A stretch of DNA of 64,000 nucleotides, taken from the NCBI RefSeq assembly GCF_900105255.1, contig NZ_LT629763.1:3249001-3313000 (forward strand), in the 5' to 3' direction. Made by a program: the position numbers and the translations under genes. This document shows positions 33,306 to 47,925 of this stretch, piece after piece (position 1 is the stretch's first letter; each line of letters opens with the position of its first letter). This stretch comes from Halopseudomonas sabulinigri (GTDB lineage Bacteria > Pseudomonadota > Gammaproteobacteria > Pseudomonadales > Pseudomonadaceae). The notes beneath the pieces were generated by a model, which did no database searches, was not told the origin of the DNA, and saw nothing but the letters and a program-made list of their open reading frames with translations.

Positions 33306-33335
33306 TTTACAAAAAAGAAAAAATTGTTCATTATT
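33306..33335 (+). promoter_or_regulatory. A-tract promoter element, copy 1 (upstream of ditA3)
   Basis: The 30-nt stretch reads TTTACA, then AAAAAA, then TTGTTC, and aligns without gaps to three further copies (40479, 42345, 45389). It ends 32 nt before the ditA3 start. It is the most divergent copy. In BKME-9 the IclR regulator DitR is reported to activate ditA3, so this is a candidate DitR site or shared promoter. Confidence 0.4.
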
Positions 33336-33367
33336 TGTCTTCGCTGAGCCTGACAAGAGGAAAAAAT

Positions 33368-33589
33368 ATGAGTTCAGATAAGGTTATTTTTCGCGCTGTG
33401 GCGGATCGTGGCCGCTGCTGTGGCTATGGTTTGTGTGCTTCCATTTGCCCAGAAGTATACAAATTGGACGGTGATGGGTTGGTTTACTTCGACGACGACA
33501 AAGTCCCGCCGGAGTTGGAAGAAGCGGCCCGAGAAGGCGCAGAAGCTTGTCCTGCCGAGGCAATCTGGTTGGAAGAAATCCAGAGCTAA
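33368..33589 (+). CDS. ditA3: 3Fe-4S/4Fe-4S-type ferredoxin of the ring-hydroxylating dioxygenase
   Basis: 73 residues from ATG 33368 (AAGAGGAAA site). Cys17, Cys23, Cys27 and Cys61-Pro62 form a ferredoxin cluster. The second Cys of a classical CxxCxxCxxxCP is replaced by Tyr20, giving a CxxYxxC variant as in the 3Fe-4S ferredoxins of P450 systems; Cys18 is an extra. DitA3 of Pseudomonas abietaniphila is reported as an unusual non-Rieske ferredoxin encoded about 9 kb from ditA1A2, and here the gap to ditA1 is 8.8 kb. It likely delivers electrons to DitA; serving a P450 is the alternative. Confidence 0.82.
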   Translation: MSSDKVIFRAVADRGRCCGYGLCASICPEVYKLDGDGLVYFDDDKVPPELEEAAREGAEACPAEAIWLEEIQS

Positions 33590-33624
33590 CAACCGCTCAC
33601 CTGAATACCAAGGAGCCAAGCATT

Positions 33625-34383
33625 ATGAAACGCCTTGAAGGGAAGGTCGTATTGATCAGCGGTACTGGCGGCGGGCAGGGCCGGGTAGCTGCGCTGAGGT
33701 TTGCACGTGAAGGCGCTATCGTCGTTGGTTGTGACACAAACAGTGAGGAGCACGCAAAGACCGCTCAATTGATGGAAGCGGAGGGTTATTCACTGCATGG
33801 CAGTGCGCCAATCGATCTGGGCGACCACGAGCAAGTGCGCGGTTGGGTGGAAAGTGCGGTTGCCGCTCACGGCAAGATCGACGTCCTTTACAACAACGCT
33901 TCGGCAGCGCGTTTCGCTCCAGTGCAGGACATGAGTATAGAAGACTGGCATTTCACCATCCGCAACGAGGTCGACCTTATTTTCTATGCAACCAAGTATG
34001 CATGGAACCACTTGGCCAAGCAGAAAGGCGTGATTATCAACGTGTCTTCAACCGCGGCCTGGGGCGGATCTAAAGTGGCGGGTATCTCCGCCCATTCTGC
34101 GGCTAAGGGTGCAGTGGTGTCTTTCACTCGTCAGATCGCTGTGGAAGGTGCGCCCTTGGGCATTCGAGCCGTCAGTCTCAGCCCTGGATTTATTGCCACC
34201 CCGGGAACGGCGGCTTTCATGGAAAACCCTCAGGCCAGAGCTGCACTGCTTGATGGTGTGCTGATGGATCGCCCTGGTGAGCCGGAAGAGGTTGTCGCAA
34301 TGGCTCTGTTTATTGCCTCGGAAGAAGCATCCTTCATCACCGGGTCAGATATCGTTATTGACGGTGGTTTGCTGGCAATCTGA
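33625..34383 (+). CDS. SDR, probable dihydrodiol dehydrogenase (DitB-like), Tyr replaced by His
   Basis: 252 residues from ATG 33625 (AAGGAG site); the ORF start at 33547 overlaps the ferredoxin and is not used. Nucleotide motif SGTGGGQG (about 12-19), NNAS and Ser in NVSSTAAW are present. The YxxxK positions read HSAAK, so the catalytic Tyr appears to be His. By position it corresponds to DitB in BKME-9, expected to oxidise the cis-dihydrodiol made by DitA to a catechol. The His substitution makes that assignment worth testing. It follows ditA3 by 35 nt. Confidence 0.75.
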   Translation: MKRLEGKVVLISGTGGGQGRVAALRFAREGAIVVGCDTNSEEHAKTAQLMEAEGYSLHGSAPIDLGDHEQVRGWVESAVAAHGKIDVLYNNASAARFAPVQDMSIEDWHFTIRNEVDLIFYATKYAWNHLAKQKGVIINVSSTAAWGGSKVAGISAHSAAKGAVVSFTRQIAVEGAPLGIRAVSLSPGFIATPGTAAFMENPQARAALLDGVLMDRPGEPEEVVAMALFIASEEASFITGSDIVIDGGLLAI

Positions 34384-34448
34384 TCAGTCAATCGCGCTAT
34401 GCGATAACCATTACGATCGCTGTCGACACAAAACATGAGGTAAAGAGC

Positions 34449-35390
34449 ATGGATATTATTGGCATTGGCTATCTGGGCTTTGAAGCTACGGACTTGGATG
34501 CATGGCGTGACTATGGTCCGTCAGTGATGGGTTTCGGGATGGGCAAAAATCCTGATAGCGATCCCGATTCGGTTTATTTTCGTATAGATGACCGGCGTCA
34601 TCGCTTTGCCTTTCACCCAGGTGATGTGGACCGTCTGGCCTATATTGGCTGGGAAGCGAAAGGTCGTATGGAGTACAAGCAAGCCTTGGCGCGTTTCCGT
34701 GAGGAAGGGGTCGATTTTGAAGTTGGCGATCAGGCGCTGTGTGAAATGCGCGGCGTCAAAGAGTTAATTCGATTTTTTGATCCAGTCGGGTTTCAGCACG
34801 AATTATTCTATGGACAAAAGTGGACGCCGGACTCCTTTGTGGCTGGTCGGCGACATGGTGGGTTCCTCGCCAACCACCGGGGGTTGGGTCATGTCGTGTT
34901 AATGGCCCCTGAGTACTCTGATGAGTTGGAGCACTTTCTTATCAATATCATGGGCTTTCATTGGTACGGATCTGGCGCAGGCAAGGGGCGCACGGGCTTT
35001 TTCCGTTCCAAACTGAACACTTACACCAGCCATGACATTGCGTATGGTCACGCGCCGGGCCGTATGGGAATACAGCACATTGGTTTATTCGTAAGCAGTA
35101 TTAGGGATGTAGGTGAAACCTACGATCTCGTCAAAAAGCGTGAGCTGCCAATGATGATGACGCTGGGGCAACATGCGCAAGATCCCCATGTATCTTTCTA
35201 CCACTTCACGCCGTCAGGTTTTGCTTTTGAGTGCATAGGCGAGATTGAGCCGTGGCACGATGATGGCTTTGAGCTAAATCCTGAGGTGATGAGTGTTTGG
35301 GGGCATGAAATTGTAGGCCCGATACTTGGGCCAAGTGTCAAAACACCTGAAGAGGTTCGTGATCCGGCTTTTAGCCAGAAGAAAGGCTAA
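34449..35390 (+). CDS. ditC: Type I extradiol ring-cleavage dioxygenase
   Basis: 313 residues, two VOC modules. Iron ligands H148 (GLGHVVL), H210 (GIQHIGLF) and E261 (FAFECIG) match the 2-His-1-carboxylate set of BphC-type enzymes. H195, H242 and Y251 match the second-sphere catalytic residues. It should meta-cleave a catechol. In the dit pathway that is 7-oxo-11,12-dihydroxydehydroabietic acid. HsaC-like steroid enzymes are relatives, but steroid genes (KstD, KshA) are not seen. It lies between the SDR and an FAH-family gene. Confidence 0.9.
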   Translation: MDIIGIGYLGFEATDLDAWRDYGPSVMGFGMGKNPDSDPDSVYFRIDDRRHRFAFHPGDVDRLAYIGWEAKGRMEYKQALARFREEGVDFEVGDQALCEMRGVKELIRFFDPVGFQHELFYGQKWTPDSFVAGRRHGGFLANHRGLGHVVLMAPEYSDELEHFLINIMGFHWYGSGAGKGRTGFFRSKLNTYTSHDIAYGHAPGRMGIQHIGLFVSSIRDVGETYDLVKKRELPMMMTLGQHAQDPHVSFYHFTPSGFAFECIGEIEPWHDDGFELNPEVMSVWGHEIVGPILGPSVKTPEEVRDPAFSQKKG

Positions 35391-35395
35391 GCCGC

Positions 35396-36286
35396 TTGCA
35401 TCTCGCTCGTATTCAAGACCTGTACGGGCGTACCGGCTGGGCCTCACTCGACCTTGAGACAGGACAGGCTTGGTGGATACTTGGATGTTTTACCGATTGG
35501 GCTGAGAAGCTGACGCGGTGCCAAGCCAGAGCGCCCGCGGTCGATGAGATGCCTGTTCAACCAGGAGGCTATACGCTTTTGGCGCCTGCTGAATCAGGAG
35601 CTCGCGTTTTTGGCGTAGGCCTGAATTACCGGACGCATCTTGAGCGACTTGGTAGTTCTGAACCACCTCATCCGCTGTCTTATATCAAACCCGAGTCCGC
35701 ACTGGTGCCGCATCTGGGTGAAATTCTTTATCCCGCGGTGACACAAGAGCTTGACTACGAAATAGAACTGGTCGCGGTAGTGGGTAGGCCGCTTGAGGAT
35801 GAAGCAAGCGCGGTGTCATGTCTATTGGGTTACACCATTGGCAATGATGTGAGTGCGCGAGACGCAGGCAGGGCGCTGGGGAGACTGGATCTTTTTACTC
35901 AAAAAGCGCTGGATCAGACAACACCTCTCGGCCCCTGGTTAACCTTGAGAGCCGAGGCTGGTGGGGATAGGCAGCCGGAACTGGACATGCAGCTCTCAGT
36001 AAATGGTGAAGTCCGGCAGCGGGACAACACAAGAGAGATGATTTTTCCCCTGGCCGAGGTGCTGAATTACCTGGATGCCCGTGTGAAGCTGCGTGCGGGA
36101 GATGTTGTTTTTACCGGCTCTACCCATGGGGTAGGTCTGGAATCCGGTAGTTTTCTTCAACCGGGAGACCGAATCGAGGCAACGATTCAGGGTATAGGCA
36201 CGCTAATAAACCAGGTCGGTCCACGCAGGCAATTAGCCTCGCCCAGGCGTCAGGGTCGCTTGGGGTTGCCCTCAGATCGTGGGTGA
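35396..36286 (+). CDS. FAH-family hydrolase/hydratase (DitD-like)
   Basis: 296 residues with TTG start at 35396, five nt after the ditC stop, with AAAGG upstream. Metal-site segments QELDYEIELVAVVG and YTIGNDVSARDAGRA are those of fumarylacetoacetate hydrolase-fold enzymes (fumarylpyruvate hydrolase, 2-hydroxyhepta-2,4-dienedioate isomerase or hydratase). It probably acts directly after meta cleavage, on the dienoate or its product. It is one of three FAH-fold genes in the window. Position matches DitD of BKME-9 as I recall the cluster. Confidence 0.85.
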   Translation: MHLARIQDLYGRTGWASLDLETGQAWWILGCFTDWAEKLTRCQARAPAVDEMPVQPGGYTLLAPAESGARVFGVGLNYRTHLERLGSSEPPHPLSYIKPESALVPHLGEILYPAVTQELDYEIELVAVVGRPLEDEASAVSCLLGYTIGNDVSARDAGRALGRLDLFTQKALDQTTPLGPWLTLRAEAGGDRQPELDMQLSVNGEVRQRDNTREMIFPLAEVLNYLDARVKLRAGDVVFTGSTHGVGLESGSFLQPGDRIEATIQGIGTLINQVGPRRQLASPRRQGRLGLPSDRG

Positions 36287-36334
36287 AAAAAATCGCGTGT
36301 TTGTAAATGTCGTGCTGCGTCCTGAGGGGTTGGT

Positions 36335-37930
36335 GTGATCAATCGGAAGTCTCCCTGGTACCCGCTGACGCTAGCAAGGTTTCGGCCCTTCTGGACTGCA
36401 GGAGCGGTAACCAATCTCGCAATCTGGATGCAGACGGTGGGGGCTGCCTGGATCATGGCGGGCTTATCGGATAGCGCCTGGATGGTCTCTCTAGTGCAGA
36501 CCGCAATTACCTTGCCGGTATTCTTGTGCGGCTTGCCAGGAGGGGTGATTGCAGATCTTGTAGATCGGCGTCGATGGCTCCTTTTTACTCAATCATTGAT
36601 GCTATTTGCGGCTTTCAGTCTATTTGCTCTTATGGTGTCAGGGTATTTGACGCCTTGGGCGCTACTTGGTTTGACCTTTTTGCTCGGCATTGGCAGCGCC
36701 CTTAATATGCCGGCTTGGATGGCTGCGACTTTAACTCTGATTCCCCGCGATGTGGTTCCCTCTGCGGTCGCCTTGAATGCGGTGTCAACCAATGTGGCCA
36801 GGGCGGTAGGGCCTGCGATTGCAGGGCTGTTGATTGCGGCGGTTGGGCAGTCGGCTGTGTTTTTCGTTATTGCCTTGTGCTTCTTTGGTGTAACGCTCTT
36901 TTTGCTGCGTTGGCAGGAGCAGCAACCGGTTGTCACCTTGCCTCCGGAGACCTTGTTCGGCGGAATGCGCAGTGGCCTGCGATATATACGCCACTCGCGA
37001 GAGTTGACCAGCTCGCTCACCCAGGTATTCGTATTCACCAGTTGTGCTAGTTCGCTTTGGGCTCTCTTGCCTTTAATAGCGAAGGAGCGTCTCTCAATGG
37101 CGGCCGATGGATACGGTTTGTTGATGGGCGCGTTGGGTTTGGGCGCTGTTTTGGCTGCGCTCAATTTGCCGCGGCTTTATCGTGATTTTGCGCTGCGTAA
37201 ACTGATAGCTGGCGGGGTGGCGTTTTTTGCGTTAGCTACGGCTGGAGCAGCACTGCTGGAATCGGTTTGGACGGTATGGCCAGTTTTGGTGGCGGCAGGT
37301 ATGGCCTGGATGGCAGTGAATGCCACAGCCTCAACGATCGTCCAGACTTGTGCTGCCGATTGGGTGCGCGCGCGGGTGGCCTCCGTTTACCTGTTGATGT
37401 ATATGGGGGCGATGGCACTTGGTGGCTTCTTGTGGGGTGTTGTCGCGGAGGTTGCCGGCCTGCAGATGAGCCTACTGGTTTCCTCCGTCGCGATGCTAGC
37501 AGGGCTGTGGGTAACCCGACGGGGTGTCTTCGTGTTGGGCAGTGAAGCAGACTATCGAGTCATTGCGCAGGCGGACAAGGTGATGGTCGCAACCGCGGTG
37601 GCGCATTCGGATGGTCCGGTTTCAGTAGAGACTGTCTATCGTGCGATCCCTTCGGTGCGTGCTGACTTCCTCCGTATCGCCTACGCGGTTGGTAAGTCAC
37701 GTCGCCGTAACGGTGCCAGAAACTGGCGCCTGTATCGCGATTTGGCTGATCCGGATCGCTATGTGGAGCGTTTCATTGTCGAATCCTGGTTGGACTATCT
37801 TCGTCAACGCGAACGAGTGACGCGGGCAGATCGGCAGATAGAGCTCGGGCTGAGCGGTTATATTGACCCTGGAGTGGTGTCGACCCGGCGCTATATCTCC
37901 CAGAGTGCGCAGGACACTTCGGATAAGTGA
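36335..37930 (+). CDS. ditE: MFS permease with C-terminal extension
   Basis: 531 residues from GTG 36335 (TGAGGGG site). The first 400 residues hold about 11-12 TM helices in the EntS-like MFS_3 pattern (LARFRPFWTAGAVTNLAIWMQTVGAAWIM; GGVIADLVDRRRWLLFTQ is motif A). A soluble C-terminal domain of about 130 residues follows and ends with LGLSGYIDPGVVSTRRYIS. In BKME-9 a permease gene, ditE, lies between ditC/ditD and ditR, as here. Likely transports the resin acid or an intermediate. Confidence 0.82.
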   Translation: MINRKSPWYPLTLARFRPFWTAGAVTNLAIWMQTVGAAWIMAGLSDSAWMVSLVQTAITLPVFLCGLPGGVIADLVDRRRWLLFTQSLMLFAAFSLFALMVSGYLTPWALLGLTFLLGIGSALNMPAWMAATLTLIPRDVVPSAVALNAVSTNVARAVGPAIAGLLIAAVGQSAVFFVIALCFFGVTLFLLRWQEQQPVVTLPPETLFGGMRSGLRYIRHSRELTSSLTQVFVFTSCASSLWALLPLIAKERLSMAADGYGLLMGALGLGAVLAALNLPRLYRDFALRKLIAGGVAFFALATAGAALLESVWTVWPVLVAAGMAWMAVNATASTIVQTCAADWVRARVASVYLLMYMGAMALGGFLWGVVAEVAGLQMSLLVSSVAMLAGLWVTRRGVFVLGSEADYRVIAQADKVMVATAVAHSDGPVSVETVYRAIPSVRADFLRIAYAVGKSRRRNGARNWRLYRDLADPDRYVERFIVESWLDYLRQRERVTRADRQIELGLSGYIDPGVVSTRRYISQSAQDTSDK

Positions 37931-37982
37931 CTTGGCTTGATTCTGGGCAAAGTTTTCCAGTTAAAGGCGTATTCAAAAATCA

Positions 37983-38000
37983 TATTCTTGATATAGAATA
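37983..38000. promoter_or_regulatory. 18-bp palindrome upstream of ditR (site S3)
   Basis: TATTCT-TGATAT-AGAATA, perfect 6-bp arms around N6, 59 nt before the ditR start. It shares the TTCT-N6-AGAA core with three other sites. Autoregulation by DitR is one reading. Confidence 0.55.
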
Positions 38001-38059
38001 AATTGTTGGGCTGCATAGAGTGCGGCTCATAATTTAGTTAGCTCAGGGAATATGATCAG

Positions 38060-38833
38060 ATGCCAGCAGACGTCGCCCAGGGAAATGCCCCGGTAACCGT
38101 TAAACCCGTTGTTAATGCCATACGTATATTGCGGCTCTTGAGTCAGGCGGGTGGGCCTGAGCGCGCGGTGGACATTGCGCGGCAGCTGGATATCAACCCT
38201 AGCACCTGTTTCAATATTCTGCGCACGCTGGCGGCGGAAGACATGGTTGAGTTCAATGCTATGTCCAAGCGATATTCTGCTGGGCTGGGTTTGGCTAGGC
38301 TCGTGGAGCAGTTTGTTACTCAAGGTCAGAAGATTCAGTTGGCCAAGCCGTTGCTCGAGAGCTTTGCTGCCAAGGTCCGCGTAACGGTAACGCTCTGGCG
38401 ACGTATCGGTAATGATCGCATCGTTATTGTCAGCTCCGCGGCCTGCCCGACGGACGTGCGAATCGATATGAGTGAGGGGCAGCGCCTGCCCATAATGATG
38501 GGCGCGAGCGGAAGACTTTTCGCCTCGCAGCTAGATTTGGAGTCCGAGAGCTCGCGGGAGATTTTCGAGAAAATACGCTGGGGAGCACCGTTGTCTTACG
38601 ACGATTACAAAAAGCAGGTCAGCGATGCCTCGCAACGCGGCTGGGCGCTGGATGATGGCTATTTCTCTATAGGTATCCTTGCAGTCGCAGCTCCAGTATT
38701 TTCGCCGAGTAATAGTATCGAGTTTACTGTTTCGGCGGTGATGTTCCGTGGGCAGCGTGATGAGGCCGGTATTGCCGAACTTGGCAGCATGTTGGGAGGC
38801 CTGTGTAGTGAGCTGGAGTCTGTCCTTTTCTAG
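38060..38833 (+). CDS. ditR: IclR-family transcriptional regulator
   Basis: 257 residues. N-terminal winged helix-turn-helix (AIRILRLLSQAGGPERAVDIARQLDINPSTCFNILRTLAAEDMV, about 17-60), then an IclR effector domain (residues about 85-250). In P. abietaniphila ditR is reported as an IclR-type, inducer-dependent activator of ditA3. It sits between the permease gene and the convergent thiolase-fold gene, as in that cluster. Its own promoter carries a palindrome (37983). The inducer would be a diterpenoid acid. Confidence 0.88.
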   Translation: MPADVAQGNAPVTVKPVVNAIRILRLLSQAGGPERAVDIARQLDINPSTCFNILRTLAAEDMVEFNAMSKRYSAGLGLARLVEQFVTQGQKIQLAKPLLESFAAKVRVTVTLWRRIGNDRIVIVSSAACPTDVRIDMSEGQRLPIMMGASGRLFASQLDLESESSREIFEKIRWGAPLSYDDYKKQVSDASQRGWALDDGYFSIGILAVAAPVFSPSNSIEFTVSAVMFRGQRDEAGIAELGSMLGGLCSELESVLF

Positions 38834-38844
38834 GCTTTCATGAG

Positions 38845-40035
38845 TCACTCTTTTACCAGTAGTAGGCTGCCACCGAGCGGGCCACCGCCGGCGGCAGTGA
38901 CAGCGACCTGATGGTCTGCAATCTGTCGCTCTCCCGCCTTTCCCCATAATTGCAGACAGGCCTCATGCAAGTAGCCGAGCCCGTGGGTACGCCCTCCTGA
39001 GAGTTGTCCGCCGTTAGTATTGAGCGGCAGCTGGCCGGTAAGCGAAATCCGTTGCCCCCCCTCGATGAAGTTACCACTTTCTCCTCGTGGGCATAGTCCA
39101 AGAGCTTCAAGCCAGATCATGGTCAAAATGGAGAAGCCGTCATATAGCTGTGCAGACTTCACGTCCTTGGGTTTTAGGTCTGTGCGGCTCCACATCATTT
39201 TACTCACATCGAATGCTGCGCCCTCAGTGAGTGATATTTGGTCCCATGACCAAGGCTGGTTCAGCGCGGCACCTATTGCCTCGATACGAATGGGAGGGTT
39301 TTTTGTATCCCGGGCAGCGTCCTTGTGAGAAAGAATAATTGCAGTGGAGGCGTCACAGTGTACGTCGCAGTCAAACATGCGTAAGGGCGATGAAATCATC
39401 CTTGATTGCATGTAGTCGTCCATGCTCATGGGCGAGCGATAAACCGCTTTTGGATTCAGCTGCGCATGCTTGCGACAGGTCAATGCTATCTGTGCAAGCT
39501 GCTCCGGCTTAGTTCCGTACTCATGGAAATGGCGCTGGGCATATATCGCCATCAAGTTCACTGCAGATAGGACGTTGAAGGGGGTATACCACTGCCAGGC
39601 AAAGCTGCTGTCGCGTCCAGCAGTCTTGTTGGTGAGCGCCGAAGCCTGCTTATTTATGAGGCGCGAGGATGACTCGGTGATAGTTCGAAATACCAACACG
39701 TGTTTGCATAGGCCGCTCGCAATGGCCATCGCCCCGTTGATGACGCCGGCAAGTGGCCCGGGTCCTTCGTAGCCGCCACCAAACCAGTTTACTTCCAAAC
39801 CTAACGCGTTCTTTAGGGCGTTGGGGCCGACGGGTGAGAAGCTGTCGCCATTGTTGTTGTCACCCGGCCAGCAGGCGATACCGTCGATATCGCTGCGCTC
39901 AAGGCCTGCATCAGCTATTGCCTGCAGGCAAGCATCCACTGTCAGGCGCATTCCCGACAGTTGGGAAGGGCGCCCCACCTCCGATTGGCCGATCCCGGTG
40001 ATCGCGACCTCTTTCTCATAGAGTCTGGTCGACAT
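38845..40035 (-). CDS. Thiolase-fold protein, probable aldol-lyase type (DitF-like)
   Basis: 396 residues with thiolase/SCP-x superfamily features (VAITGIGQSEVGR at the N-terminus, GGGPLGGSLLLVKE at the C-terminus). The usual nucleophilic Cys near residue 90 is missing; the region reads GGGYEGPGPLAG. A His in GGRTHGLGYLHEA is retained. Thiolase-like proteins without the Cys, paired with a DUF35 protein, act as retro-aldolases in steroid side-chain degradation (Ltp2-ChsH2). The DUF35 gene lies 2 nt upstream on the same strand. It probably cleaves a C-C bond of a CoA thioester. Confidence 0.83.
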   Translation of the reverse strand: MSTRLYEKEVAITGIGQSEVGRPSQLSGMRLTVDACLQAIADAGLERSDIDGIACWPGDNNNGDSFSPVGPNALKNALGLEVNWFGGGYEGPGPLAGVINGAMAIASGLCKHVLVFRTITESSSRLINKQASALTNKTAGRDSSFAWQWYTPFNVLSAVNLMAIYAQRHFHEYGTKPEQLAQIALTCRKHAQLNPKAVYRSPMSMDDYMQSRMISSPLRMFDCDVHCDASTAIILSHKDAARDTKNPPIRIEAIGAALNQPWSWDQISLTEGAAFDVSKMMWSRTDLKPKDVKSAQLYDGFSILTMIWLEALGLCPRGESGNFIEGGQRISLTGQLPLNTNGGQLSGGRTHGLGYLHEACLQLWGKAGERQIADHQVAVTAAGGGPLGGSLLLVKE

Positions 40036-40037
40036 AC

Positions 40038-40430
40038 TTAGTCCTTAATAAAGAGCGGAATCCAGACATCTTCTTGCTGCTCGAAAACAACTCTCAGCGG
40101 CATGCCGATATAGACCTGCTCAACAGGCTCTTCAACGTTGCTGAGAAAACGCAGCCCGGTTTGTTCTGGCAGTTCGACAATCGCTATCGCAAAGGGCGCG
40201 GCTAGGTTTGGAGTCCAGGGTTGGTAATTGATCGTAAAACTTACGACTGTCGCCTTCCCGGACACCTCTTTAGGGCGGACTGAAAGGCTTGCGCATTTTG
40301 GACAGACAGGCCCGGGAGGGTGAAAGTATCTGGTGCAGTCTTCGCACCAATGCATAAACAGGCGGCCCTGCTCCCCTCCTTGCCAGAAAGCGCGATTGTC
40401 TGCGGTCAGTGCGGGCAGCTTCCTGTGCAT
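40038..40430 (-). CDS. DUF35/OB-fold zinc-ribbon partner of the thiolase-fold protein
   Basis: 130 residues from ATG 40430, with AGGAA upstream; the longer ORF (to 40574) would overlap the divergent SDR start. The rubredoxin-like zinc ribbon CEDC...CPKC (CEDCTRYFHPPGPVCPKC) is followed by an OB fold (VSFTINYQPWTPNLAAPFAIAIVEL). DUF35 proteins bind acyl-CoA and are obligate partners of thiolase-fold lyases. It is first in the two-gene minus unit and shares a 135-nt promoter region with the SDR at 40566. Confidence 0.85.
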   Translation of the reverse strand: MHRKLPALTADNRAFWQGGEQGRLFMHWCEDCTRYFHPPGPVCPKCASLSVRPKEVSGKATVVSFTINYQPWTPNLAAPFAIAIVELPEQTGLRFLSNVEEPVEQVYIGMPLRVVFEQQEDVWIPLFIKD

Positions 40431-40565: not shown

Positions 40566-41267
40566 ATGGCGCACCTATTAAAAGGCCGCTCGGTCGTGGT
40601 TACCGGGGGGTTCGGCATATTGGGCAGGGCTCTTGCAGTCTACCTTCTAGAGCAGGGTGCCCGAGTGGCTGCCTTAGACTTGAGCGCTGTCCCCGTAGAT
40701 CTTCAGGCGAGTGAAGACTTTCTTCCGCTGGGAGGTGTAGACCTGACCGACCCGGTGTCCGCGGGGGATGCTATGACCCAGGTGTCGAGTGCGTTTGGCC
40801 ATATAGACTCGCTGGTCAACGTCGCTGGTGGTTTTGCTTGGGAACCCTTTGAAACCGGCGCTCTGGAAACCTGGGATCGGATGTATCAGATGAATGTCCG
40901 AACGACCGTTACTGCCACGCATGCAGCTCTTCCCCATTTGCTTACATCGGCTGATGGTCGGGTGGTCAGCATCAGCGCGGTCGCTGCCGGTAAGGCAGGT
41001 TTGGGGGTTTCAGCATACGCTGCTGCCAAGGCTGGTGTGTCTCGATTCACCGAGTCTCTAGCTGAAGAGTTGAAGACGCGTAGCGTTACGGTGAACGCGG
41101 TTATGCCGAGCATTATTGATACCCCCACTAATAGAGCTGATATGCCTGATGAGGATTTCTCAAGTTGGGTGGCTCCAAGTTCTCTAGCCGCAGTTATCGG
41201 GTTTCTCCTATCGGATCAGGCGGCAGTCATTACCGGTGCCTGCCTCCCTGTGACCGGCAAGGTCTAG
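40566..41267 (+). CDS. SDR-family dehydrogenase (DitG-like)
   Basis: 233 residues with an AGGAGAG site upstream. Canonical active site: nucleotide motif VTGGFGILG (about 12-20), NVAG, Ser in SISAVAAG and YAAAK. The opening is typical of classical SDRs. It is followed after 30 nt by the FAH-like gene at 41298. In the BKME-9 cluster an SDR called DitG occupies about this place, but I am unsure of the name. Probably oxidises or reduces a ring hydroxyl/ketone of a diterpenoid or an acyl-CoA intermediate. Confidence 0.82.
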   Translation: MAHLLKGRSVVVTGGFGILGRALAVYLLEQGARVAALDLSAVPVDLQASEDFLPLGGVDLTDPVSAGDAMTQVSSAFGHIDSLVNVAGGFAWEPFETGALETWDRMYQMNVRTTVTATHAALPHLLTSADGRVVSISAVAAGKAGLGVSAYAAAKAGVSRFTESLAEELKTRSVTVNAVMPSIIDTPTNRADMPDEDFSSWVAPSSLAAVIGFLLSDQAAVITGACLPVTGKV

Positions 41268-41297: not shown

Positions 41298-42284
41298 ATG
41301 AGATTGGTTACCTTCGTGAATAGTGCGGGCCTGGAACTGCCAGGTGCATTGCTCGACAGCGATCAGGTGGTACTTGATCTTCAAGCGGCGCATCGTGAAT
41401 GCAAAGGTGGTGCCTCGCCAGCGTTGCAGAGTGTCTTGAGTTTGGCCGAGTCGGGTGACGCCGGCTTTGAGTTGGCACGCAGTGTAGTGGCTAAAGCGCC
41501 TGCTTCTGCGGTTGTTGCGCGGGATCAAGTACGTCTGCGAGCGCCAATCCAGCCCCCTCCACAGATGCGCGACTTTTCCTGCTTTGAGCTGCACCTGCAG
41601 CAATGTTTTGCCGCTGCCAGAAAGGGCCGTGCGATGCGGGCAGCTGACCCGGAAGCGGCACTGCGTGAGATGGATACCAGCGCAGATGACTCCGTCCTTA
41701 AAACCTTCAACCGTCAACCTATTTACTACAAGTGCAACCGCTTTGCGGTAGCGGGTATGGACGATGAGTTTCAGTGGCCATCGTACAGCAAGCTTTTGGA
41801 TTTTGAGCTGGAGTTCGGTTGCTACATGGGCAAGCGAGGCAAAGACATAACGCGTGATCAGGCGCGGAGCTTCATCTTCGGTTACACCATTTTTAACGAC
41901 ATCAGCGCGCGCGACGCCCAAGGTCGCGAGATGGGCGGGATGTTGGGGCCGGCGAAGGGCAAGGATTTCGATACTGCGAATGTGATGGGTCCGTGCCTGG
42001 TGACGGCCGATGAGCTTGGTGATCCCTACGATCTGAATATGATTGCCAGGGTGAATGGCGAGGAGTGGGGGCGAGGTAACACGAGAGATATGCGCTGGCA
42101 GTTCGAAGATGTAATTGCTCATGTGTCGCAGTCGGAAACCTTGTATCCAGGGGAATTCCTGGGATCAGGGACTGTGGGTAATGGTTGTGGTTTGGAACAG
42201 CTGCGCTATCTCAAGCGAGGGGATGTGGTGGAGCTTGAGGTGGACGGTATTGGTGTATTACGTACACAGGTCGGACAAAAGTGA
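41298..42284 (+). CDS. FAH-family isomerase/hydrolase (DitH-like)
   Basis: 328 residues, AAAGGAAAG site upstream. FAH fold: residues about 175-215 (LDFELEFGCYMGKRGKD) contain the metal-binding acidic residues, and FGYTIFNDISARDAQGREMGG is the signature segment. An N-terminal lid domain of roughly 90 residues is typical of the longer FAH proteins. DitH of BKME-9 was described as similar to isomerase/decarboxylases of the 2-hydroxyhepta-2,4-diene-1,7-dioate type. It precedes ditA1 by 135 nt. Confidence 0.83.
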   Translation: MRLVTFVNSAGLELPGALLDSDQVVLDLQAAHRECKGGASPALQSVLSLAESGDAGFELARSVVAKAPASAVVARDQVRLRAPIQPPPQMRDFSCFELHLQQCFAAARKGRAMRAADPEAALREMDTSADDSVLKTFNRQPIYYKCNRFAVAGMDDEFQWPSYSKLLDFELEFGCYMGKRGKDITRDQARSFIFGYTIFNDISARDAQGREMGGMLGPAKGKDFDTANVMGPCLVTADELGDPYDLNMIARVNGEEWGRGNTRDMRWQFEDVIAHVSQSETLYPGEFLGSGTVGNGCGLEQLRYLKRGDVVELEVDGIGVLRTQVGQK

Positions 42285-42344
42285 TCACTCAGGGCGTATG
42301 GGAGTGGCTGAAAACCCGAGATACATAATTATCCTTACATTTTA

Positions 42345-42374
42345 TGTACATTTATTAAAAATTTGTTTATATTT
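42345..42374 (+). promoter_or_regulatory. A-tract promoter element, copy 3 (upstream of ditA1)
   Basis: Begins TGTACATTTATT, continues AAAAATTTGTTT. It aligns ungapped with 40479 and 45389 and ends 45 nt before the ditA1 start. A small palindrome TACAT-TTT-ATGTA (42336-42348) overlaps its left edge. Confidence 0.5.
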
Positions 42375-42419
42375 TTCCCGACTGCAGCCGGCATCATTTC
42401 AAATACCCTGGAGGCGAGC

Positions 42420-43817
42420 ATGCTAACAAAAACAAGCGCAGTGCTTTCTGATGGCACTAAGATATCCGACCTGATTTATCCTGATACTCGTGAAGTTCAG
42501 ATGCGCGTACTGTCCGATCCCGAGATCTATGAGCTGGAGATGGAGAAGATCTTCGGCAAGACGTGGGTCATGCTGGGCCACGAATCCGAGATTCCTAACT
42601 CTGGTGACTTTATCGTTCGAGATATGGGATCCGACTCAGTTATCGTTGCGCGTGACAAGGCTGGTGAGGTTCACGTGACGTTGAACGTTTGCCCTCACCG
42701 CGGCATGCGTGTAGCTCTGACTGACTGCGGTAATACCCAAATCCACAAGTGCATTTATCACGGCTGGGCCTTCCGTACCAATGGTGACTTTGTCGGCTCA
42801 CCAGTAGAGCGTGAGTGCATGCACGGGAAGCTACTTGAGAAGTCTGAACTAGGCCTGAAAAAGGCGCGTTCGGTTCTGTACGGCGGCTTGATATTTGCGA
42901 CTTGGAACATCGAGGGCCCTTCTTTTGAAGAGTTTCTTGGTGATGCCAAGTGGTATTACGACATGCTCTTCCTGAGAAGCGACAAAGGTATGGAAGTGCT
43001 CGGGCCACCGCAACGGTTCATTGTCAATGCAAACTGGAAGACCGCAGGCGAGCAGTCAGCGGCAGATGGTTTTCATACGCTGACATTGCATCGTTGGCTG
43101 GGTGAGGTGGGTAACTACTCAAAGAAAGGTGAGGATGAGGGTGAGGGCGCAGACCTGAGCCCGGAAATGATCGGGGTTGAAGTAAGTTCGCCCCATGGTC
43201 ACGCATTGCGTTGTATTGATCTCGCTCGCAAGATCCGCCGTCTAACAGGTCTTAATCCGGATGAGCTTAGTGTTCAGGAGAAGCTTAAAGCGCTGCCTCC
43301 GGCAGGCATGACTCAGGATATGATTGATCAGCTTGCCAATAATTTGTCCGAAGATCAGCTGAAGGTTCTGACCTCTATGCCGCCCCAGGTCGGCGGTATG
43401 TTCCCTAACATTCTGTTCGGTTTCGTCTACATCCCGCAGCCTGATGGTTCTGTAGTGGGATCCATGACGATGCATACCTACATTCCGCGCGGACCAAATA
43501 AGCTTGAATTCTGCAACTGGATTTTTGCCGAGAAGGATGCACCGGCAGAGCTGCGGGAAAAAATGTTGAAACAGACAATTCAGCTGTTTGGCACTTCCGG
43601 CATGGTAGAGCAAGACGACTCTGACACCTGGCCGCACATGACGCTTTCCGCGAAAGGTGCAATGGGCAAGCATATGACGCTGAAGTATCAGGCGATGTTT
43701 GAAACAGGGGCCCCGGAAGGCTGGCCAGGGCCGGGCATTGTGAACGAAGGTTTCACCAAAGACGACACCCAGTGGCATTGGTGGTTGTATTGGAACGAAT
43801 TGATGAACGCGGAATAA
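42420..43817 (+). CDS. ditA1: Aromatic-ring-hydroxylating dioxygenase, alpha subunit
   Basis: 465 residues from ATG 42420 with GGAGG upstream; the longer ORF from 42363 starts inside the promoter element. Rieske ligands are C91, H93, C111 and H114. The mononuclear iron site has D216-x2-H219-x4-H224 and a C-terminal acidic ligand near D399/D400 (EQDDSDTW). It is partnered by the beta subunit 33 nt downstream. DitA hydroxylates 7-oxodehydroabietic acid in P. abietaniphila. The 8.8-kb separation from its ferredoxin matches that system. No dedicated Rieske ferredoxin or reductase gene lies beside it. Confidence 0.9.
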   Translation: MLTKTSAVLSDGTKISDLIYPDTREVQMRVLSDPEIYELEMEKIFGKTWVMLGHESEIPNSGDFIVRDMGSDSVIVARDKAGEVHVTLNVCPHRGMRVALTDCGNTQIHKCIYHGWAFRTNGDFVGSPVERECMHGKLLEKSELGLKKARSVLYGGLIFATWNIEGPSFEEFLGDAKWYYDMLFLRSDKGMEVLGPPQRFIVNANWKTAGEQSAADGFHTLTLHRWLGEVGNYSKKGEDEGEGADLSPEMIGVEVSSPHGHALRCIDLARKIRRLTGLNPDELSVQEKLKALPPAGMTQDMIDQLANNLSEDQLKVLTSMPPQVGGMFPNILFGFVYIPQPDGSVVGSMTMHTYIPRGPNKLEFCNWIFAEKDAPAELREKMLKQTIQLFGTSGMVEQDDSDTWPHMTLSAKGAMGKHMTLKYQAMFETGAPEGWPGPGIVNEGFTKDDTQWHWWLYWNELMNAE

Positions 43818-43850
43818 CCTTCTCCATATCAATAAAAATAGGAGTCTCTT

Positions 43851-44411
43851 ATGCAGCATGCTGAAGAAAAGAGCCTAGATATCAGTCAGGGACCATACGT
43901 GCCCGTTGGTTCAGCTGAGTACAGTGCCGTTGTAACTTTCTTGTATGAGGAGGCCGCACTTCTGGATCAGTTACGCTTGAACGAGTGGGGGGATCGGCTG
44001 GCGACTGACCTCGTGTATACCGCGCCCCTGCGTCACACTCGACTGGGTGTTGATCACGCACAGAGTTTTGTACGCAGCGTTCAGCATTTTCACGATGACT
44101 ACCGCTCTGTGATGGGGCGTATCTTGCGCCTGTCCGGCAAGAGTGCATGGGCCGAAGACCCGCCGTCGCGCACTCGACGCCTAGTCACCAACGTTCTGGT
44201 TCGTGAAACTGAAAATCCCGACGAGCTGGACGTGACGAGCTACGTGCTGATGACACGCAGTCGCTTTAGTGAGCACCATGTTGACATCATCAGCTTCGAA
44301 CGGAGAGATGTTCTGCGTAAGCAGGCGGATGGCGGATTCAAGCTCGCAAAACGAGAGGCGATCCTGGACCAATCAGTACTGGGTACAGCAAACCTCGCAG
44401 TGTTTTTGTAG
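43851..44411 (+). CDS. ditA2: Aromatic-ring-hydroxylating dioxygenase, beta subunit
   Basis: 186 residues, NTF2/SnoaL-like fold of ring-hydroxylating beta subunits. Seen in YSAVVTFLYEEAALLDQLRLNEWGDRLATDLVYTAPLR, VLVRETENPDELDVTSYVLMTRSR and the C-terminal KLAKREAILDQSVLGTANLAVFL. Together with the alpha subunit it would form the A3B3 oxygenase. It has a strong AATAGGAGTC start region and is followed by a terminator at 44458, ending the ditA1A2 transcript. Confidence 0.9.
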   Translation: MQHAEEKSLDISQGPYVPVGSAEYSAVVTFLYEEAALLDQLRLNEWGDRLATDLVYTAPLRHTRLGVDHAQSFVRSVQHFHDDYRSVMGRILRLSGKSAWAEDPPSRTRRLVTNVLVRETENPDELDVTSYVLMTRSRFSEHHVDIISFERRDVLRKQADGGFKLAKREAILDQSVLGTANLAVFL

Positions 44412-44457
44412 TAAGAGTTGGGCTTTGGTTGTGGTCAGCAATCAAATGCCATGCGGG

Positions 44458-44488
44458 AAAAAGCCTGCCATTTGGCGGGCTTTTTTTT
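44458..44488. terminator. Intrinsic terminator after ditA2, likely bidirectional
   Basis: AAAAAGCCTGCC, loop ATTT, GGCGGGCTTTTTTTT, one T-G wobble in the stem. It also suits the minus-strand gene ending at 44591. Confidence 0.88.
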
Positions 44489-44590
44489 GCCTAGTTGCTC
44501 GATGTTGGTGGGGTTTTCAGTGCGGTACTTCGGCTTGTCGGCCTAATGTTCAGCCTATTCTTGACCGGATTGATGGTTAGTTGGCAGGGG

Positions 44591-45325
44591 TTAGCTGGCA
44601 TGATCACCGTTAAGCCAAGCCTGATCTGTTGCGCATAAGAGCTCTTGTTGAGAACCAAAGTCGAGCGTTGAGCCAACCATCCTTCGCGCATGTTTAGCCC
44701 TTATCGGTTGCTGCGCGTAACATAAGCCGGTTTCTGCTGCGTGTTCATTGGCATCAAGATCGTACTCTCTTCCGCGAGAGATGGTGGTACAGCGACGGAG
44801 GATCAGCGCCGCTTCGGCTTCTTCAGTTGACAGCGTTCGAATAGCCCAGCCAGCCATGCCGTGGTTGAGGTCTATTCCGGCATATGGAGGGGGAGCGGTT
44901 ATCTGAGTGCCTTGGGTCTTCCAGGCAAGATAAAGCTCGCCATTGCGCCATAGGCTGGGGCTGGTTGCGCCCAATAATCGTTGGGGAACTGCAATCTCAT
45001 AGTGTCGATGCTCTATGTTGGCCGCTGCAGCAGCGATTGCAAGGCCAGCTAAGTCCAGCAAATGCGTGCATTGAAGTTTGGCGTCAGTTTGCCGGTTCAC
45101 GCTGTGTGCGATGTCAGATAGTGGCATCCCTAGTAGCCCACGCAGCTGGTTGGCCGCAGATGGGCAAGCGTCGTAGGGGAAGCGAACCGCCCAGCCATTA
45201 ATATCAGTCAGAATCTCGGAATTATGTCTGATGCTTACCCTGAAGTGATGAAAATCATCCTCAAGAGCGGCCCTGACTTCATGGTCGTTTTGAGCCTGGA
45301 TTACTATGCGCCGCCTGAAAAGCAT
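44591..45325 (-). CDS. DUF2889-like protein
   Basis: 244 residues, no signal peptide. Features recall DUF2889: a basic N-terminus, H-rich LEDDFHHFRVSIRHN, a CP motif in RFPYDACPSAANQLRGL, and the segment QCTHLLDLAGLAIAAAA. The DUF2889 assignment is from memory. Proteins of this family often occur in aromatic and steroid catabolic clusters, but their function is unknown to me. It is a lone minus-strand gene between the ditA1A2 terminator and the SDR at 45431, with its promoter overlapping that of the SDR. Confidence 0.75.
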   Translation of the reverse strand: MLFRRRIVIQAQNDHEVRAALEDDFHHFRVSIRHNSEILTDINGWAVRFPYDACPSAANQLRGLLGMPLSDIAHSVNRQTDAKLQCTHLLDLAGLAIAAAAANIEHRHYEIAVPQRLLGATSPSLWRNGELYLAWKTQGTQITAPPPYAGIDLNHGMAGWAIRTLSTEEAEAALILRRCTTISRGREYDLDANEHAAETGLCYAQQPIRAKHARRMVGSTLDFGSQQELLCATDQAWLNGDHAS

Positions 45326-45388
45326 ATTGATCTCACATTCTAGGTAGCAGGGAAATTGAGTGGAACTCTAGGTTATCGTGTAATAATA

Positions 45389-45418
45389 TGAACATTAACA
45401 AAAAAAGTGTTTATTAAA
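45389..45418 (+). promoter_or_regulatory. A-tract promoter element, copy 4
   Basis: Begins TGAACATTAACA, then an A-tract and GTGTTTATT, aligned ungapped with 40479 and 42345. It lies just 12 nt before the SDR start, so it may include the -10 region or an operator rather than a distant activator site. Confidence 0.5.
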
Positions 45419-45430
45419 AAGGCTGACGAT

Positions 45431-46231
45431 ATGGAACTGCTCAAGAATAAAGTTGCCCTGATCACCGGTTCTGGTGGCGGTATCGGCGAAGGTGTCGCAC
45501 GTTACTTCGTTAAGCAGGGCGCTAGTGTTGTAGTCTCTGAGCTAAATGAAGAGCTCGGAGAGCGGGTGGCTGCAGACCTGCGCGCGCTTGGCGGTAATGC
45601 TGTTTTTGTTAAAACGGACGTGTCCAGCAAGGCCAGCATAGGAAACGCTATCGAAGCTGCGGCCAGGGAGTTTGGCGGCTTGGATGTGTTGGTAAATAAT
45701 GCCTTTGCTCCCACGCCAAATGTCCTGTTTGAAGAAAAAACAGATGAAATGCTCGAGCAGACCCTGGGTACCACCGTCTGGGCTGCTTGGTGGGCAATGC
45801 GCGAAGCAATGCCTCTGATGAAAAAGCGTGGCGGCGGGTCAATTATCAACTTTTATTCAATTGATACTGAAATAGGTGCATGGCTGCATGCGGATTACAA
45901 TACAGCCAAATCCGCCATTTTGGGCCTGACTCGCAGCGCTGCGTCTGAGTGGGGGCGATTCAACATCCGGGTAAATGCAATAGCTCCTACCGCTATGGGG
46001 GCAACCTTTCACAAGTTGGCCGCTGAACGCCCCGGTTTTGCCGAGATGTCGGCCTCGATGCGACCTTTGGGGCGCTGCGGTGAACCGGAGGATGATATTG
46101 GGCCTGTGGTTGCTTTCCTCGCGTCAGAGATGGCCCGGTTCGTTACCGGAGAGGCGCTGCACGTTGATGGTGGCCTGCACTTGCCGGGATATAATTCGCG
46201 CCCGGCCAATGTACTGCCGAGAGAATATTAA
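45431..46231 (+). CDS. SDR-family dehydrogenase (DitI-like)
   Basis: 266 residues from ATG 45431; a GTG at 45407 lies inside the conserved promoter element and is not preferred. Canonical active site: TGSGGGIG (about 12-19), NNAF, Ser in NFYSIDTE, YNTAK. It is alone on the plus strand, downstream of the DUF2889-like gene and convergent with the CoA ligase. In P. abietaniphila DitI is reported to be a dehydrogenase linked to the 7-hydroxy/7-oxo step. Whether this is that enzyme is an inference from order. Confidence 0.83.
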   Translation: MELLKNKVALITGSGGGIGEGVARYFVKQGASVVVSELNEELGERVAADLRALGGNAVFVKTDVSSKASIGNAIEAAAREFGGLDVLVNNAFAPTPNVLFEEKTDEMLEQTLGTTVWAAWWAMREAMPLMKKRGGGSIINFYSIDTEIGAWLHADYNTAKSAILGLTRSAASEWGRFNIRVNAIAPTAMGATFHKLAAERPGFAEMSASMRPLGRCGEPEDDIGPVVAFLASEMARFVTGEALHVDGGLHLPGYNSRPANVLPREY

Positions 46232-46246
46232 CGCCTAACAGCTTCA

Positions 46247-46288
46247 GGTTTAACCCGCATGCCTGCTTGGCAGGATGCGGGTTAAACC
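46247..46288. terminator. Long inverted repeat between convergent genes
   Basis: GGTTTAACCCGCAT (46247-46260) is exactly repeated in reverse complement at 46275-46288. The inner pair CCTGC/GCAGG extends the stem, with one bulged G. It separates the SDR and the CoA ligase. No U-run follows, but the stem is strong. Confidence 0.6.
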
Positions 46289-46293
46289 ACCTC

Positions 46294-47925
46294 TTAACGT
46301 TTCTTGACTGTTATGTCGGTGTCTTCCAAATCCCAGGTTGCAGCTGTTTTCCCTTCGTCCCGCAGTTGATATTTGAGTACCCTGCCTTGGGGGTTTTTTG
46401 GCAAGTCTGTACGGAACTCGATGTAGCGAGGTAGTGCGTAGTAGGGAACGGAATCCGTAGCCCACTGGAAAAGGTCTTCCTCTTTGAGGGAGGCATTTTC
46501 ATGCAGGATTGCAGTTACTTTAACGTCATCCTCGCCTTTGTCTGACAGCACAGCATGTACTGCTACTTCAGCGATGGCAGGGTGCACGGCGAAGGCAGAC
46601 TCCATTTCAAAACTGGAAATGTTTTCCCCTCTGCGGCGCAGGTAGTCTTTCTTGCGATCAACAAAAAAGAAAAAACCATCCTCGTCGAACTTGCCGATAT
46701 CGCCAGTGTGATACCACATGTTCTTCATGACTTTCAGCGTTTCTTCGGGACGGCGCCAGTACCCCTGGAACATGATGTCTGGCCGCAGAGGGCGGACTAC
46801 GATCTCTCCGGCCTGGTTGGCTGGCAGCTCGAAATCATTTTCATCAACAATGCGCACGTCAAAGTCGGGGATGCGCTTGCCGGAGGAGCCTGGTTTTGCG
46901 TACTCCCCGGCGGCCAGCGTAGTCACTACGCAGGCTTCGGTCAGGCCGTAGCCGTTACCCCCGACCAGAGGAGTGCCGAAACGAGATCGCCAGATCGATT
47001 TAGTTTCCTCCGTGTAGGGATTCCCGCGTGCTGTATGGATTTGTCCAAAACAGCGCTTCATTGCTTCATTGTCTGGAGCCTGGGCGAGCAACCCACCCAT
47101 GCCGCCAAGAATGGATGCGATGGTGGCGCCGCTGCGCTCCACTTCCGGCCAGAAATTGGAGACCGAAAAGCGCGGAAGAATTGCCGCTCTCGCGCCCACC
47201 AGCATCGTGGCTATGATAGTCACGCAGAGCGCATTCATGTGAAATAAGGGTAGGGGCGTGATTGTTACGTCGGTTTCTGAAACAGGGCCCGCGCGCAGCT
47301 GTAGTCGAGCAAGGTTGCACATGAAGTTATAGCTGATCATGCAGCCCTTTGAAGGCCCTGTGGTCCCTGAAGTGTAGATGAGGCAGGCAAGGTCGGAAGC
47401 GGCTGGTCTAAACTCAATTGGGCTGTCGTTCTCGCCACGGTGCTGGTCGAGAGGGGCAACGGGAACGGCGCACTCGCCGCTGGTGTTGAGTGCTCCTCTA
47501 ACCAGGATTTGCTTAAGTGAAGTAAGCTGACTGCTGATAGCAGACACGCGCTCCAGATAAGCCTGCTCGCAGATGAGTAGAGGAGTGTCAGCATCGGCAA
47601 TTTGATGTCGCAGAAACTCACCGCGTAGTGCGGTATTAATCGGCACGCTAACAGCACCAAGTTTGTTTACCGCAAGCCAGCAGACGACGGCGTCTACGTT
47701 GTTATCCAGCATGCTGACGACGGTCTCACCTGGCTTAACACCTAGGGTGGCGAAAGAGTGAGCTAGCTTGGTAGAAAGTAAATCAATATCTCTATAAGTG
47801 TGCAATTCTCCGCTGAAATCGAGAAATACCCGGTCTGGATGGCTTGCTACTGCCCGGTCTAGTGCAGCGATGACAGTGTCTTGATCTCCGACATACCATG
47901 TATCAGGATTGCCAGTACCGCTCAT
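46294..47925 (-). CDS. Acyl-CoA ligase (DitJ-like)
   Basis: 543 residues, AMP-forming ligase. P-loop motif LIYTSGTTGPSKGC (182-195), GNGYGLTEA motif, YHTGDIGKFDEDGF and a C-terminal domain with KDYLRRRGENISSFE. The start is confirmed by an AAAGGAGATGAG site. It would activate a carboxylic acid of a diterpenoid or a ring-cleavage fragment to its CoA ester before beta-oxidation. BKME-9 has a CoA ligase, DitJ, at the end of its sequenced cluster. It is divergent from TetR at 48107. Confidence 0.88.
   Translation of the reverse strand: MSGTGNPDTWYVGDQDTVIAALDRAVASHPDRVFLDFSGELHTYRDIDLLSTKLAHSFATLGVKPGETVVSMLDNNVDAVVCWLAVNKLGAVSVPINTALRGEFLRHQIADADTPLLICEQAYLERVSAISSQLTSLKQILVRGALNTSGECAVPVAPLDQHRGENDSPIEFRPAASDLACLIYTSGTTGPSKGCMISYNFMCNLARLQLRAGPVSETDVTITPLPLFHMNALCVTIIATMLVGARAAILPRFSVSNFWPEVERSGATIASILGGMGGLLAQAPDNEAMKRCFGQIHTARGNPYTEETKSIWRSRFGTPLVGGNGYGLTEACVVTTLAAGEYAKPGSSGKRIPDFDVRIVDENDFELPANQAGEIVVRPLRPDIMFQGYWRRPEETLKVMKNMWYHTGDIGKFDEDGFFFFVDRKKDYLRRRGENISSFEMESAFAVHPAIAEVAVHAVLSDKGEDDVKVTAILHENASLKEEDLFQWATDSVPYYALPRYIEFRTDLPKNPQGRVLKYQLRDEGKTAATWDLEDTDITVKKR

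Follow-up and report, generated by a model that had tools for sequence, protein, structure and literature searches.

A dit-type resin-acid cluster in Halopseudomonas sabulinigri, with candidate enzymes for ring-A opening and release of the isopropyl arm

Resin acids are toxic, abundant compounds of conifers and pollutants of pulp mills, and the upper part of the dit pathway that degrades them is known. Which enzymes would carry the breakdown further is the question raised by a locus of Halopseudomonas sabulinigri at positions 33306–47925 of the 64,000-nucleotide window that we analysed (3,249,001–3,313,000 of the 4.03 Mb single-contig genome; coordinates below are those of the window). On the strength of gene content and order, we are highly confident that this region forms the core of an apparently complete dit cluster for abietane resin-acid catabolism on a Halopseudomonas chromosome, a confidence that covers the identity of the cluster and its general function. 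The cluster type is already known; the new content lies in a reassignment of DitF and its DUF35 partner, and in a link to a leucine-type operon.

According to sections of a 2026 report, most of the 19 dit genes are functionally uncharacterised, and no product later than the ring-C dihydrodiol (compound 4) was known before that work (PMC13063091). Our predictions for DitF–DUF35 and the leucine-type operon are testable hypotheses for ring-A opening and the fate of the isopropyl arm; if true, a third aldolase type and an exit by the leucine route would supply much of the missing lower resin-acid pathway in bacteria. The cluster, with DitA1 in 13 of 37 genomes of its genus, also widens the range of carriers. 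Open-access literature, searched here and below by titles and abstract openings, yielded no claim connecting Halopseudomonas with resin acids or ditA1.

The locus matches a known dit cluster

Genes were called from an open reading frame (ORF) listing combined with Pfam and NCBIfam scans, and starts inside ORFs were picked by eye using homologues. All 13 genes that the initial annotation had named were found in the order it gave, in reading frames that are uninterrupted throughout. Its comparison with the dit cluster of Pseudomonas abietaniphila BKME-9, presumably the same strain as the ATCC 700689 compared here, also held: the cores are colinear, strands included, at 54–86% identity. The likeness extends to both cytochrome P450 genes, most flanking modules and the 8.8 kb that separate the ferredoxin from the oxygenase subunits; the ditA3–ditA1 gap measured 8776–8844 bp in four related loci, P. 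abietaniphila included.

The first six genes lie on the plus strand (percentages are identities to P. abietaniphila): ditA3, a ferredoxin of the single-cluster 4Fe-4S family (33368–33589; Fer4_15/Fer4_13; 68%); ditB, an SDR dehydrogenase by Pfam (about 33625–34383; 77%); ditC, a BphC-type extradiol ring-cleavage dioxygenase (34449–35390; BphC_D1 and Glyoxalase; 76%); ditD, of the FAH family (35396–36286; PF01557; 57%); ditE, an MFS transporter (36335–37930; MFS_3; 58%); and ditR, an IclR regulator (38060–38833; IclR; 71%). On the minus strand follows ditF (38845–40035), which encodes a thiolase-fold protein. The plus strand then carries ditG, an SDR by Pfam (40566–41267; 62%); ditH, a second FAH-family gene (41298–42284; PF01557), whose best match in the PDB is L-2,4-diketo-3-deoxyrhamnonate hydrolase; ditA1 and ditA2, the Rieske oxygenase alpha subunit (about 42420–43817; PF00355/PF00848; 86%) and beta subunit (43851–44411; PF00866; 75%); and ditI, another SDR by Pfam (45407–46231; 77%). 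The AMP-forming coenzyme A (CoA) ligase gene ditJ (46294–47925, minus; PF00501/PF13193; 78%) closes the core. Two minus-strand genes had been overlooked: one at 40038–40430, for a zinc-ribbon OB-fold partner of DitF of the DUF35/ChsH2 type (OB_ChsH2_C, zf-ChsH2), and one at 44591–45325, for a DUF2889 protein (PF11136).

Conservation was assessed over 84 DitA1 loci: the best 80 of 316 confirmed relatives from a DitA1-alignment scan of genome contigs, plus four plasmid loci, some of the 84 being rearranged or cut by contig ends or the fetched flank. All 13 genes kept the same order and strands in 38 of them, which excludes chance. The DUF35 and DUF2889 genes were present in all 38 of these colinear loci, and the DUF2889 gene in 78 of the full 84. 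Key residues were kept with at most one exception per alignment column: five Cys in ditA3 (55 rows), H148, H210 and E261 in DitC (52 rows) and the Rieske and iron-ligand residues of DitA1 (85 rows). The conserved DitA1 residues are those expected as Rieske and iron ligands, and those of DitC are its His/His/Glu set. The matches of DitC in the PDB are extradiol dioxygenases.

The nearest named records to DitA1 were Pseudomonas abyssi MT5 (100%) and several Halopseudomonas (88–97%). Across 58 genomes (our own and 57 relatives), non-DitA1 Rieske oxygenases reached at most 37% to DitA1 over long stretches; a single 46-residue Rieske match reached 39%, and two short pieces of 74% and 91%, from the incomplete genome G032, are apparently fragments of DitA1. 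We also built a maximum-likelihood tree of 38 proteins, in which one branch, present in 98% of 200 bootstrap trees, split 7 other Rieske oxygenases from 31 DitA1 rows; because two outgroup branches are very long, we read only this split. A grouping of DitA1 and DitC with non-diterpenoid dioxygenases, the contrary outcome that the initial annotation had named, was thus not borne out; identity comparisons and the DitA1 tree favour dit.

Could the cluster degrade another polycyclic substrate, such as a steroid, a pimarane or a polycyclic aromatic hydrocarbon, with dit-like genes? DitF, its DUF35 partner and an acyl-CoA dehydrogenase pair do resemble steroid side-chain enzymes, and DitC also resembles HsaC-type and dihydroxynaphthalene dioxygenases. 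However, DitA1, DitC, DitF and both P450s share 71–86% identity with P. abietaniphila proteins encoded in the same order, whereas sphingomonad relatives of DitA1, which perhaps act on other substrates, reach only 55–57%, and a search of two sphingomonad plasmids (plasmid only) found no ditF. We consider another substrate very improbable.

Two further systems share parts of this organisation. Paraburkholderia xenovorans LB400 has most of the gene set (DitA1 74%, DitF 79%), but in rearranged order, with ditA3-B-C about 59 kb from ditA1 and with no ditE-like MFS gene (g30) found in the stretch. Massilia putida carries dit, leucine-type and flanking transport modules together on plasmid NZ_CP019037.1; unlike the present cluster, this one is plasmid-borne and rearranged, and its DitA1 is 67% identical.

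DitF and its DUF35 partner resemble steroid side-chain aldolases

The initial annotation had called the ditF product thiolase-fold. That fold is right, but the description needs refining, as DitF looks like an aldolase of the Ltp2 type. Among proteins of solved structure, Ltp2 itself is the nearest (6ok1_A, E 1.3e-56), followed by a putative thiolase, Sal and SCP2 thiolases. With a DitF structure model of moderate quality (mean predicted local distance difference test (pLDDT) score, 67.8), Foldseek returned 964 chains at E 0.001 or better and ranked 6ok1 first. The DUF35 gene lies just upstream of ditF on the same strand, and the best solved relative of its product is 6ok1_B, the DUF35 chain of the Ltp2 complex (E 4e-17).

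This pairing is conserved. All 63 loci in which ditF was in range had the DUF35 gene right next to it. The other 21 of the 84 had none in range; when 16 of these (all except L069, L076, L083, L095 and L097) were searched as whole genomes or records, 14 had ditF elsewhere, each time beside DUF35, and the remaining two were the sphingomonad plasmids that carry no ditF. The DUF35 protein kept the four-Cys zinc motif of the Ltp2 complex, as C-x2-C-x10-C-x2-C, in 64 of 64 rows.

DitF shares its fold, its DUF35 partner and the absence of the thiolase Cys with the steroid side-chain aldolases Ltp2–ChsH2 (6ok1) and Sal–Shy (9myr). In a HMMER alignment, DitF Tyr298 corresponds to Ltp2 Tyr294, the catalytic Tyr of the YDxF motif; Gly300, by contrast, stands at the His of YDHF and Arg349 at Ltp2 Tyr344. 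DitF thus has YDGF (residues 298–301) where Ltp2 and Sal have YDHF or YDCY. Both YDGF and Arg349 were found in 80 of 80 DitF rows (that of the window, those of the 63 loci with ditF in range and 16 from the search of whole genomes and records), a set that holds one gene twice (L023 and L140), a 49% paralogue (L141) and many near-copies. Because Gly300 and Arg349 replace the His and Tyr344 in every row, we do not class DitF as Ltp2. It probably works like an Ltp2-type aldolase without being a member of that group by its active site.

The main alternative is that DitF and DUF35 form a thiolase or acyltransferase of ordinary beta-oxidation. Two observations weigh against an aldolase: two residues that Ltp2 uses for catalysis, the His and the second Tyr, are absent from DitF, and thiolase-fold/DUF35 pairs also include true thiolases and acyltransferases, the DUF35-partnered benzoylsuccinyl-CoA thiolase, the archaeal acetoacetyl-CoA thiolase and PhlABC having the same fold. 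However, DitF does not have SCP2-type thiolase residues: Gly replaces the nucleophilic Cys and Tyr the His of the HDxF motif (HDCF in SCP2-type thiolases), as in Ltp2 and Sal, for which the catalytic roles are taken from sections of PMC12329534. A canonical thiolase is, moreover, already encoded at 51978–53159. Since its catalytic residues do not fit, we rejected the thiolase as the leading view and regard it as rather unlikely, while an aldolase activity of DitF–DUF35, as predicted from these sequence comparisons, is somewhat probable. The literature search found no claim of a retro-aldol step, nor one connecting DitF with a thiolase.

A 49–50% DitF paralogue with the same YDGF and Arg (L141) lies in another catabolic region of the Massilia plasmid (85134–86303), and two Halopseudomonas genomes (G018 and G031) have DitF homologues at 48–50%.

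A candidate route for ring-A opening

The upper steps follow, by orthology, what has been published for P. abietaniphila and LB400; the lower ones we inferred from gene content. The P450s would take dehydroabietic and abietic acids towards 7-oxo-dehydroabietate; DitA (A1A2A3) would dihydroxylate C11/C12, an SDR would rearomatise the diol and DitC would cleave ring C, under regulation by DitR. The FAH enzymes and an acyl-CoA dehydrogenase/hydratase/dehydrogenase/thiolase set would complete the breakdown.

Ring A may be opened by DitF–DUF35. If DitJ loads CoA onto C18, a hydroxyl at C5 would be beta to the thioester, and DitF–DUF35 could then perform a retro-aldol C–C cut on this beta-hydroxyacyl-CoA. 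The best candidate substrate would be the 5-alpha-hydroxy-7-oxo intermediate: cutting at C4–C5 would open the ring, giving a 5,7-diketone that FAH-family enzymes could plausibly attack and an alpha-methylacyl-CoA chain that would suit the acyl-CoA dehydrogenase pair.

Published metabolites bear on this proposal, as given in sections of two papers. In P. abietaniphila, 5-alpha-hydroxy-dehydroabietate is a transient metabolite, and 5-hydroxy-7-oxo and 5,7-dihydroxy compounds with an altered ring C are also formed (PMC13063091). The same paper states that mutants in ditI, ditH, ditF or ditC no longer grow on several resin acids. Strains with a modified ditA1 build up 5-alpha-hydroxy-7-oxo-dehydroabietate (PMC6891630). 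A point against the route is that the 5-hydroxylated compounds 6–8 persist in P. abietaniphila cultures (PMC13063091) and may be end products; compound 5, however, is transient. We regard cleavage at C4–C5 by DitF–DUF35 as possible but doubtful.

A leucine-type operon as a possible exit for the isopropyl arm

A minus-strand operon occupies the left edge of the window (1–5412) and continues outside it. It comprises a fused 2-oxoacid (indolepyruvate-type) ferredoxin oxidoreductase (1846–5412, by family match), an isovaleryl-CoA dehydrogenase-like gene (638–1819) and a carboxylase beta subunit (583 leftwards); the minus-strand run goes on with an enoyl-CoA hydratase, carboxylase alpha, 3-hydroxy-3-methylglutaryl-CoA (HMG-CoA) lyase, a CoA-transferase pair and a thiolase. 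These genes were named after the annotated Massilia plasmid genes that they match, the CoA-transferase pair being assigned by eye. Since a second carboxylase alpha (71%), HMG-CoA lyase (75%) and isovaleryl-CoA dehydrogenase (73%) lie near 2.605–2.611 Mb of the same genome, the left-edge operon is an extra copy.

An aldol-type split after ring-C cleavage may connect the operon with the cluster. Cuts at C9–C11 and then C13–C14 would free the isopropyl arm as 4-methyl-2-oxopentanoate, the keto acid of leucine, which the operon could oxidise through isovaleryl-CoA. The distribution of the genes is consistent with such a link. DitA1 (at least 89%), DitF (at least 86%) and the oxidoreductase (at least 82%) co-occur in the same 13 Halopseudomonas genomes, a count that leaves out 47% oxidoreductase homologues in two genomes, 48–50% DitF homologues, also in two, and the fragmentary DitF and DitA1 of the incomplete genome G032; as the genomes share ancestry, these are not 13 independent events. 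The isovaleryl-CoA dehydrogenase (at least 91%) is in all 13 and in one genome without DitA1 (G004). We also ran tblastn of window genes against stretches of 80–100 kb surrounding four reference clusters (P. abietaniphila, LB400, P. vancouverensis Dha-51 and P. resinovorans); the oxidoreductase turned up in those of P. abietaniphila (74%) and LB400 (56%). Leucine-type genes of the same kind lie near dit on the Massilia putida plasmid, and a Polaromonas genome (L081) has a similar oxidoreductase–dehydrogenase pair close to DitA1.

Several observations weigh against this link. In 10 of the 13 genomes the oxidoreductase and DitA1 share a contig but are 37–70 kb apart; in the other three they are on different contigs. 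It was not found in the fetched P. vancouverensis or P. resinovorans stretches, and the isovaleryl-CoA dehydrogenase gene was found in none of the four. No NahE-type hydratase-aldolase was recognised among the proteins scanned with Pfam. In addition, 2-isopropylmalate, reported as a metabolite in a section of PMC6891630, has no place in the proposed route.

Another possibility is that the operon is an unrelated neighbour and that ring C is cut distally, so that the arm leaves as isobutyrate. Cumene-type meta pathways combine a distal cut with release of isobutyrate, FAH and amidohydrolase genes able to serve as C–C hydrolases are present, and the missing isovaleryl-CoA dehydrogenase gene in the fetched P. 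abietaniphila stretch fits this account. Yet the operon duplicates leucine-pathway genes located elsewhere in the genome, all 13 Halopseudomonas genomes with DitA1 carry its oxidoreductase and dehydrogenase, and the Massilia plasmid has similar genes close to dit. We hold isobutyrate to be a possible but doubtful product, and the chances for an exit as 4-methyl-2-oxopentanoate to be about even. No claim connecting dehydroabietic acid with isovaleryl-CoA or ketoisocaproate was found in the literature.

Taken jointly, the two proposals would have 5-alpha-hydroxy-7-oxo-abietanoyl-CoA cut at C4–C5 by a thiolase-fold retro-aldolase of a third type, which has YDGF and Arg and differs from both Ltp2 and Sal, the resulting diketone cut by an FAH enzyme and 4-methyl-2-oxopentanoate leaving through a dedicated leucine pathway. 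That all of these parts hold together is unlikely.

Flanking modules and extent of the unit

The initial annotation had suggested that flanking modules extend well beyond the originally described cluster. They do appear to belong to the system: in the same tblastn comparison, most of g04–g12, g17–g20, g22–g24 and g26–g53 are conserved around the four reference clusters, which suggests a unit of about 55–60 kb. Gene order is mostly retained in the three Pseudomonas strains, with about 27 kb lying between ditI and ditJ in P. vancouverensis, and is rearranged in LB400. For some window genes no counterpart was found in the 80 kb stretch of P. abietaniphila: a chemoreceptor, the second DUF1329 gene, g13–g15, the MFS gene g21, folM/folE and the isovaleryl-CoA dehydrogenase. 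An extended cluster is partly known already, because P. abieticivorans has 24 expected dit genes in 34.6 kb, according to a section of PMC10710418.

To the right of ditJ, all on the plus strand, lie a TetR regulator (48104–48808; 72% to P. abietaniphila) and a run of amidohydrolase, FAH, 3-hydroxyacyl-CoA dehydrogenase, thiolase and CMD-like genes (49134–53662; 55–78%, order the same), whose thiolase is the canonical one (51978–53159, from the Pfam/NCBIfam scan). The cytochrome P450 at 54346–55620 (PF00067) is DitQ-like, with 80% identity to the P450 in the corresponding place in P. abietaniphila; we take it to be DitQ/CYP226, the putative C7 oxidation enzyme of the dit set by sequence. It is followed by an amidohydrolase-fold homologue of DitZ (55868–57175; PDB 8uyr 'DitZ', E 4.9e-103; 6omp PtmU3, E 5.8e-30), on which the literature search found no paper. 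The last module consists of the acyl-CoA dehydrogenase pair, an enoyl-CoA hydratase and an acyl-CoA dehydrogenase (57279–61460, from the Pfam/NCBIfam scan). The first subunit of the pair is closest to 6wy9, acyl-CoA dehydrogenase Tcur3483, which acts in steroid breakdown.

To the left, a plus-strand module (22556–26959) conserved in P. abietaniphila, LB400 and others holds a CrtO/CrtI-like flavin adenine dinucleotide (FAD) enzyme, the second P450, g19 and g20. By its family match, the FAD enzyme (22556–24145) is a candidate for the aromatisation of 7-oxo-palustrate, a step for which section 5, part 1 of PMC6891630 names no enzyme. g20 encodes a small protein without a family match. g19 (25525–26556) encodes a conserved protein of 343 amino acids with no Pfam or NCBIfam match and a poor structure model (mean pLDDT 49.9, three sequences). 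The top 11 VIA-align 2 rows for this model include CghA, kievitone hydratase, Phm7, Fsa2 and an AttH-like protein (Z 11.0–9.4), and the 25-phosphosteroid lyase scored Z 7.3–6.6, under an unrelated porin at 7.9; the model tentatively suggests a CrtC/AttH-like beta fold. A ferredoxin reductase and a Fer2 ferredoxin (28431–30002, minus; library scan, conserved by tblastn) possibly serve P450 electron transfer. Further left, a transport-like module on the plus strand (7782–17507) contains DUF1302, DUF1329, YCF48-like, MMPL transporter, glyoxalase-like, enoyl-CoA hydratase and SDR genes; P. abietaniphila has the same set, and so does the Massilia putida plasmid, next to DitA1. An ORF at 5415–6500 (minus) was ruled out as a gene: the opposite strand carries, by eye, a LysR-type look-alike at 5541–6449 (plus).

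At the right end of the cluster (62380–63683) lie dihydromonapterin reductase and GTP cyclohydrolase I genes (folM/folE). A second folM/folE copy is on the contig of DitA1 in 13 of 13 DitA1-positive Halopseudomonas genomes, the distance to DitA1 being about 18–19 kb in 12 of them and about 50 kb in G025; two folM/folE places also occur in G018 and G032, so the duplication is not confined to genomes positive for DitA1. A folE-like gene (49%) adjoins the Aromatoleum cluster, and folE is also on the Massilia plasmid. A pterin-dependent hydroxylase, which would account for these genes, was not recognised among the proteins scanned with Pfam.

Near its dit cluster, the Massilia plasmid has methylcitrate-cycle genes as well (prpB, prpC, acnD and prpF; L022, 6229–12278), which would fit propionyl-CoA production. 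In locus L125 (6963–9801), the cluster is followed on the right by a transposase-like ORF, a transfer-messenger RNA (tmRNA) and an SmpB-like ORF, identified by eye except for the tmRNA; this stretch is a possible integration boundary.

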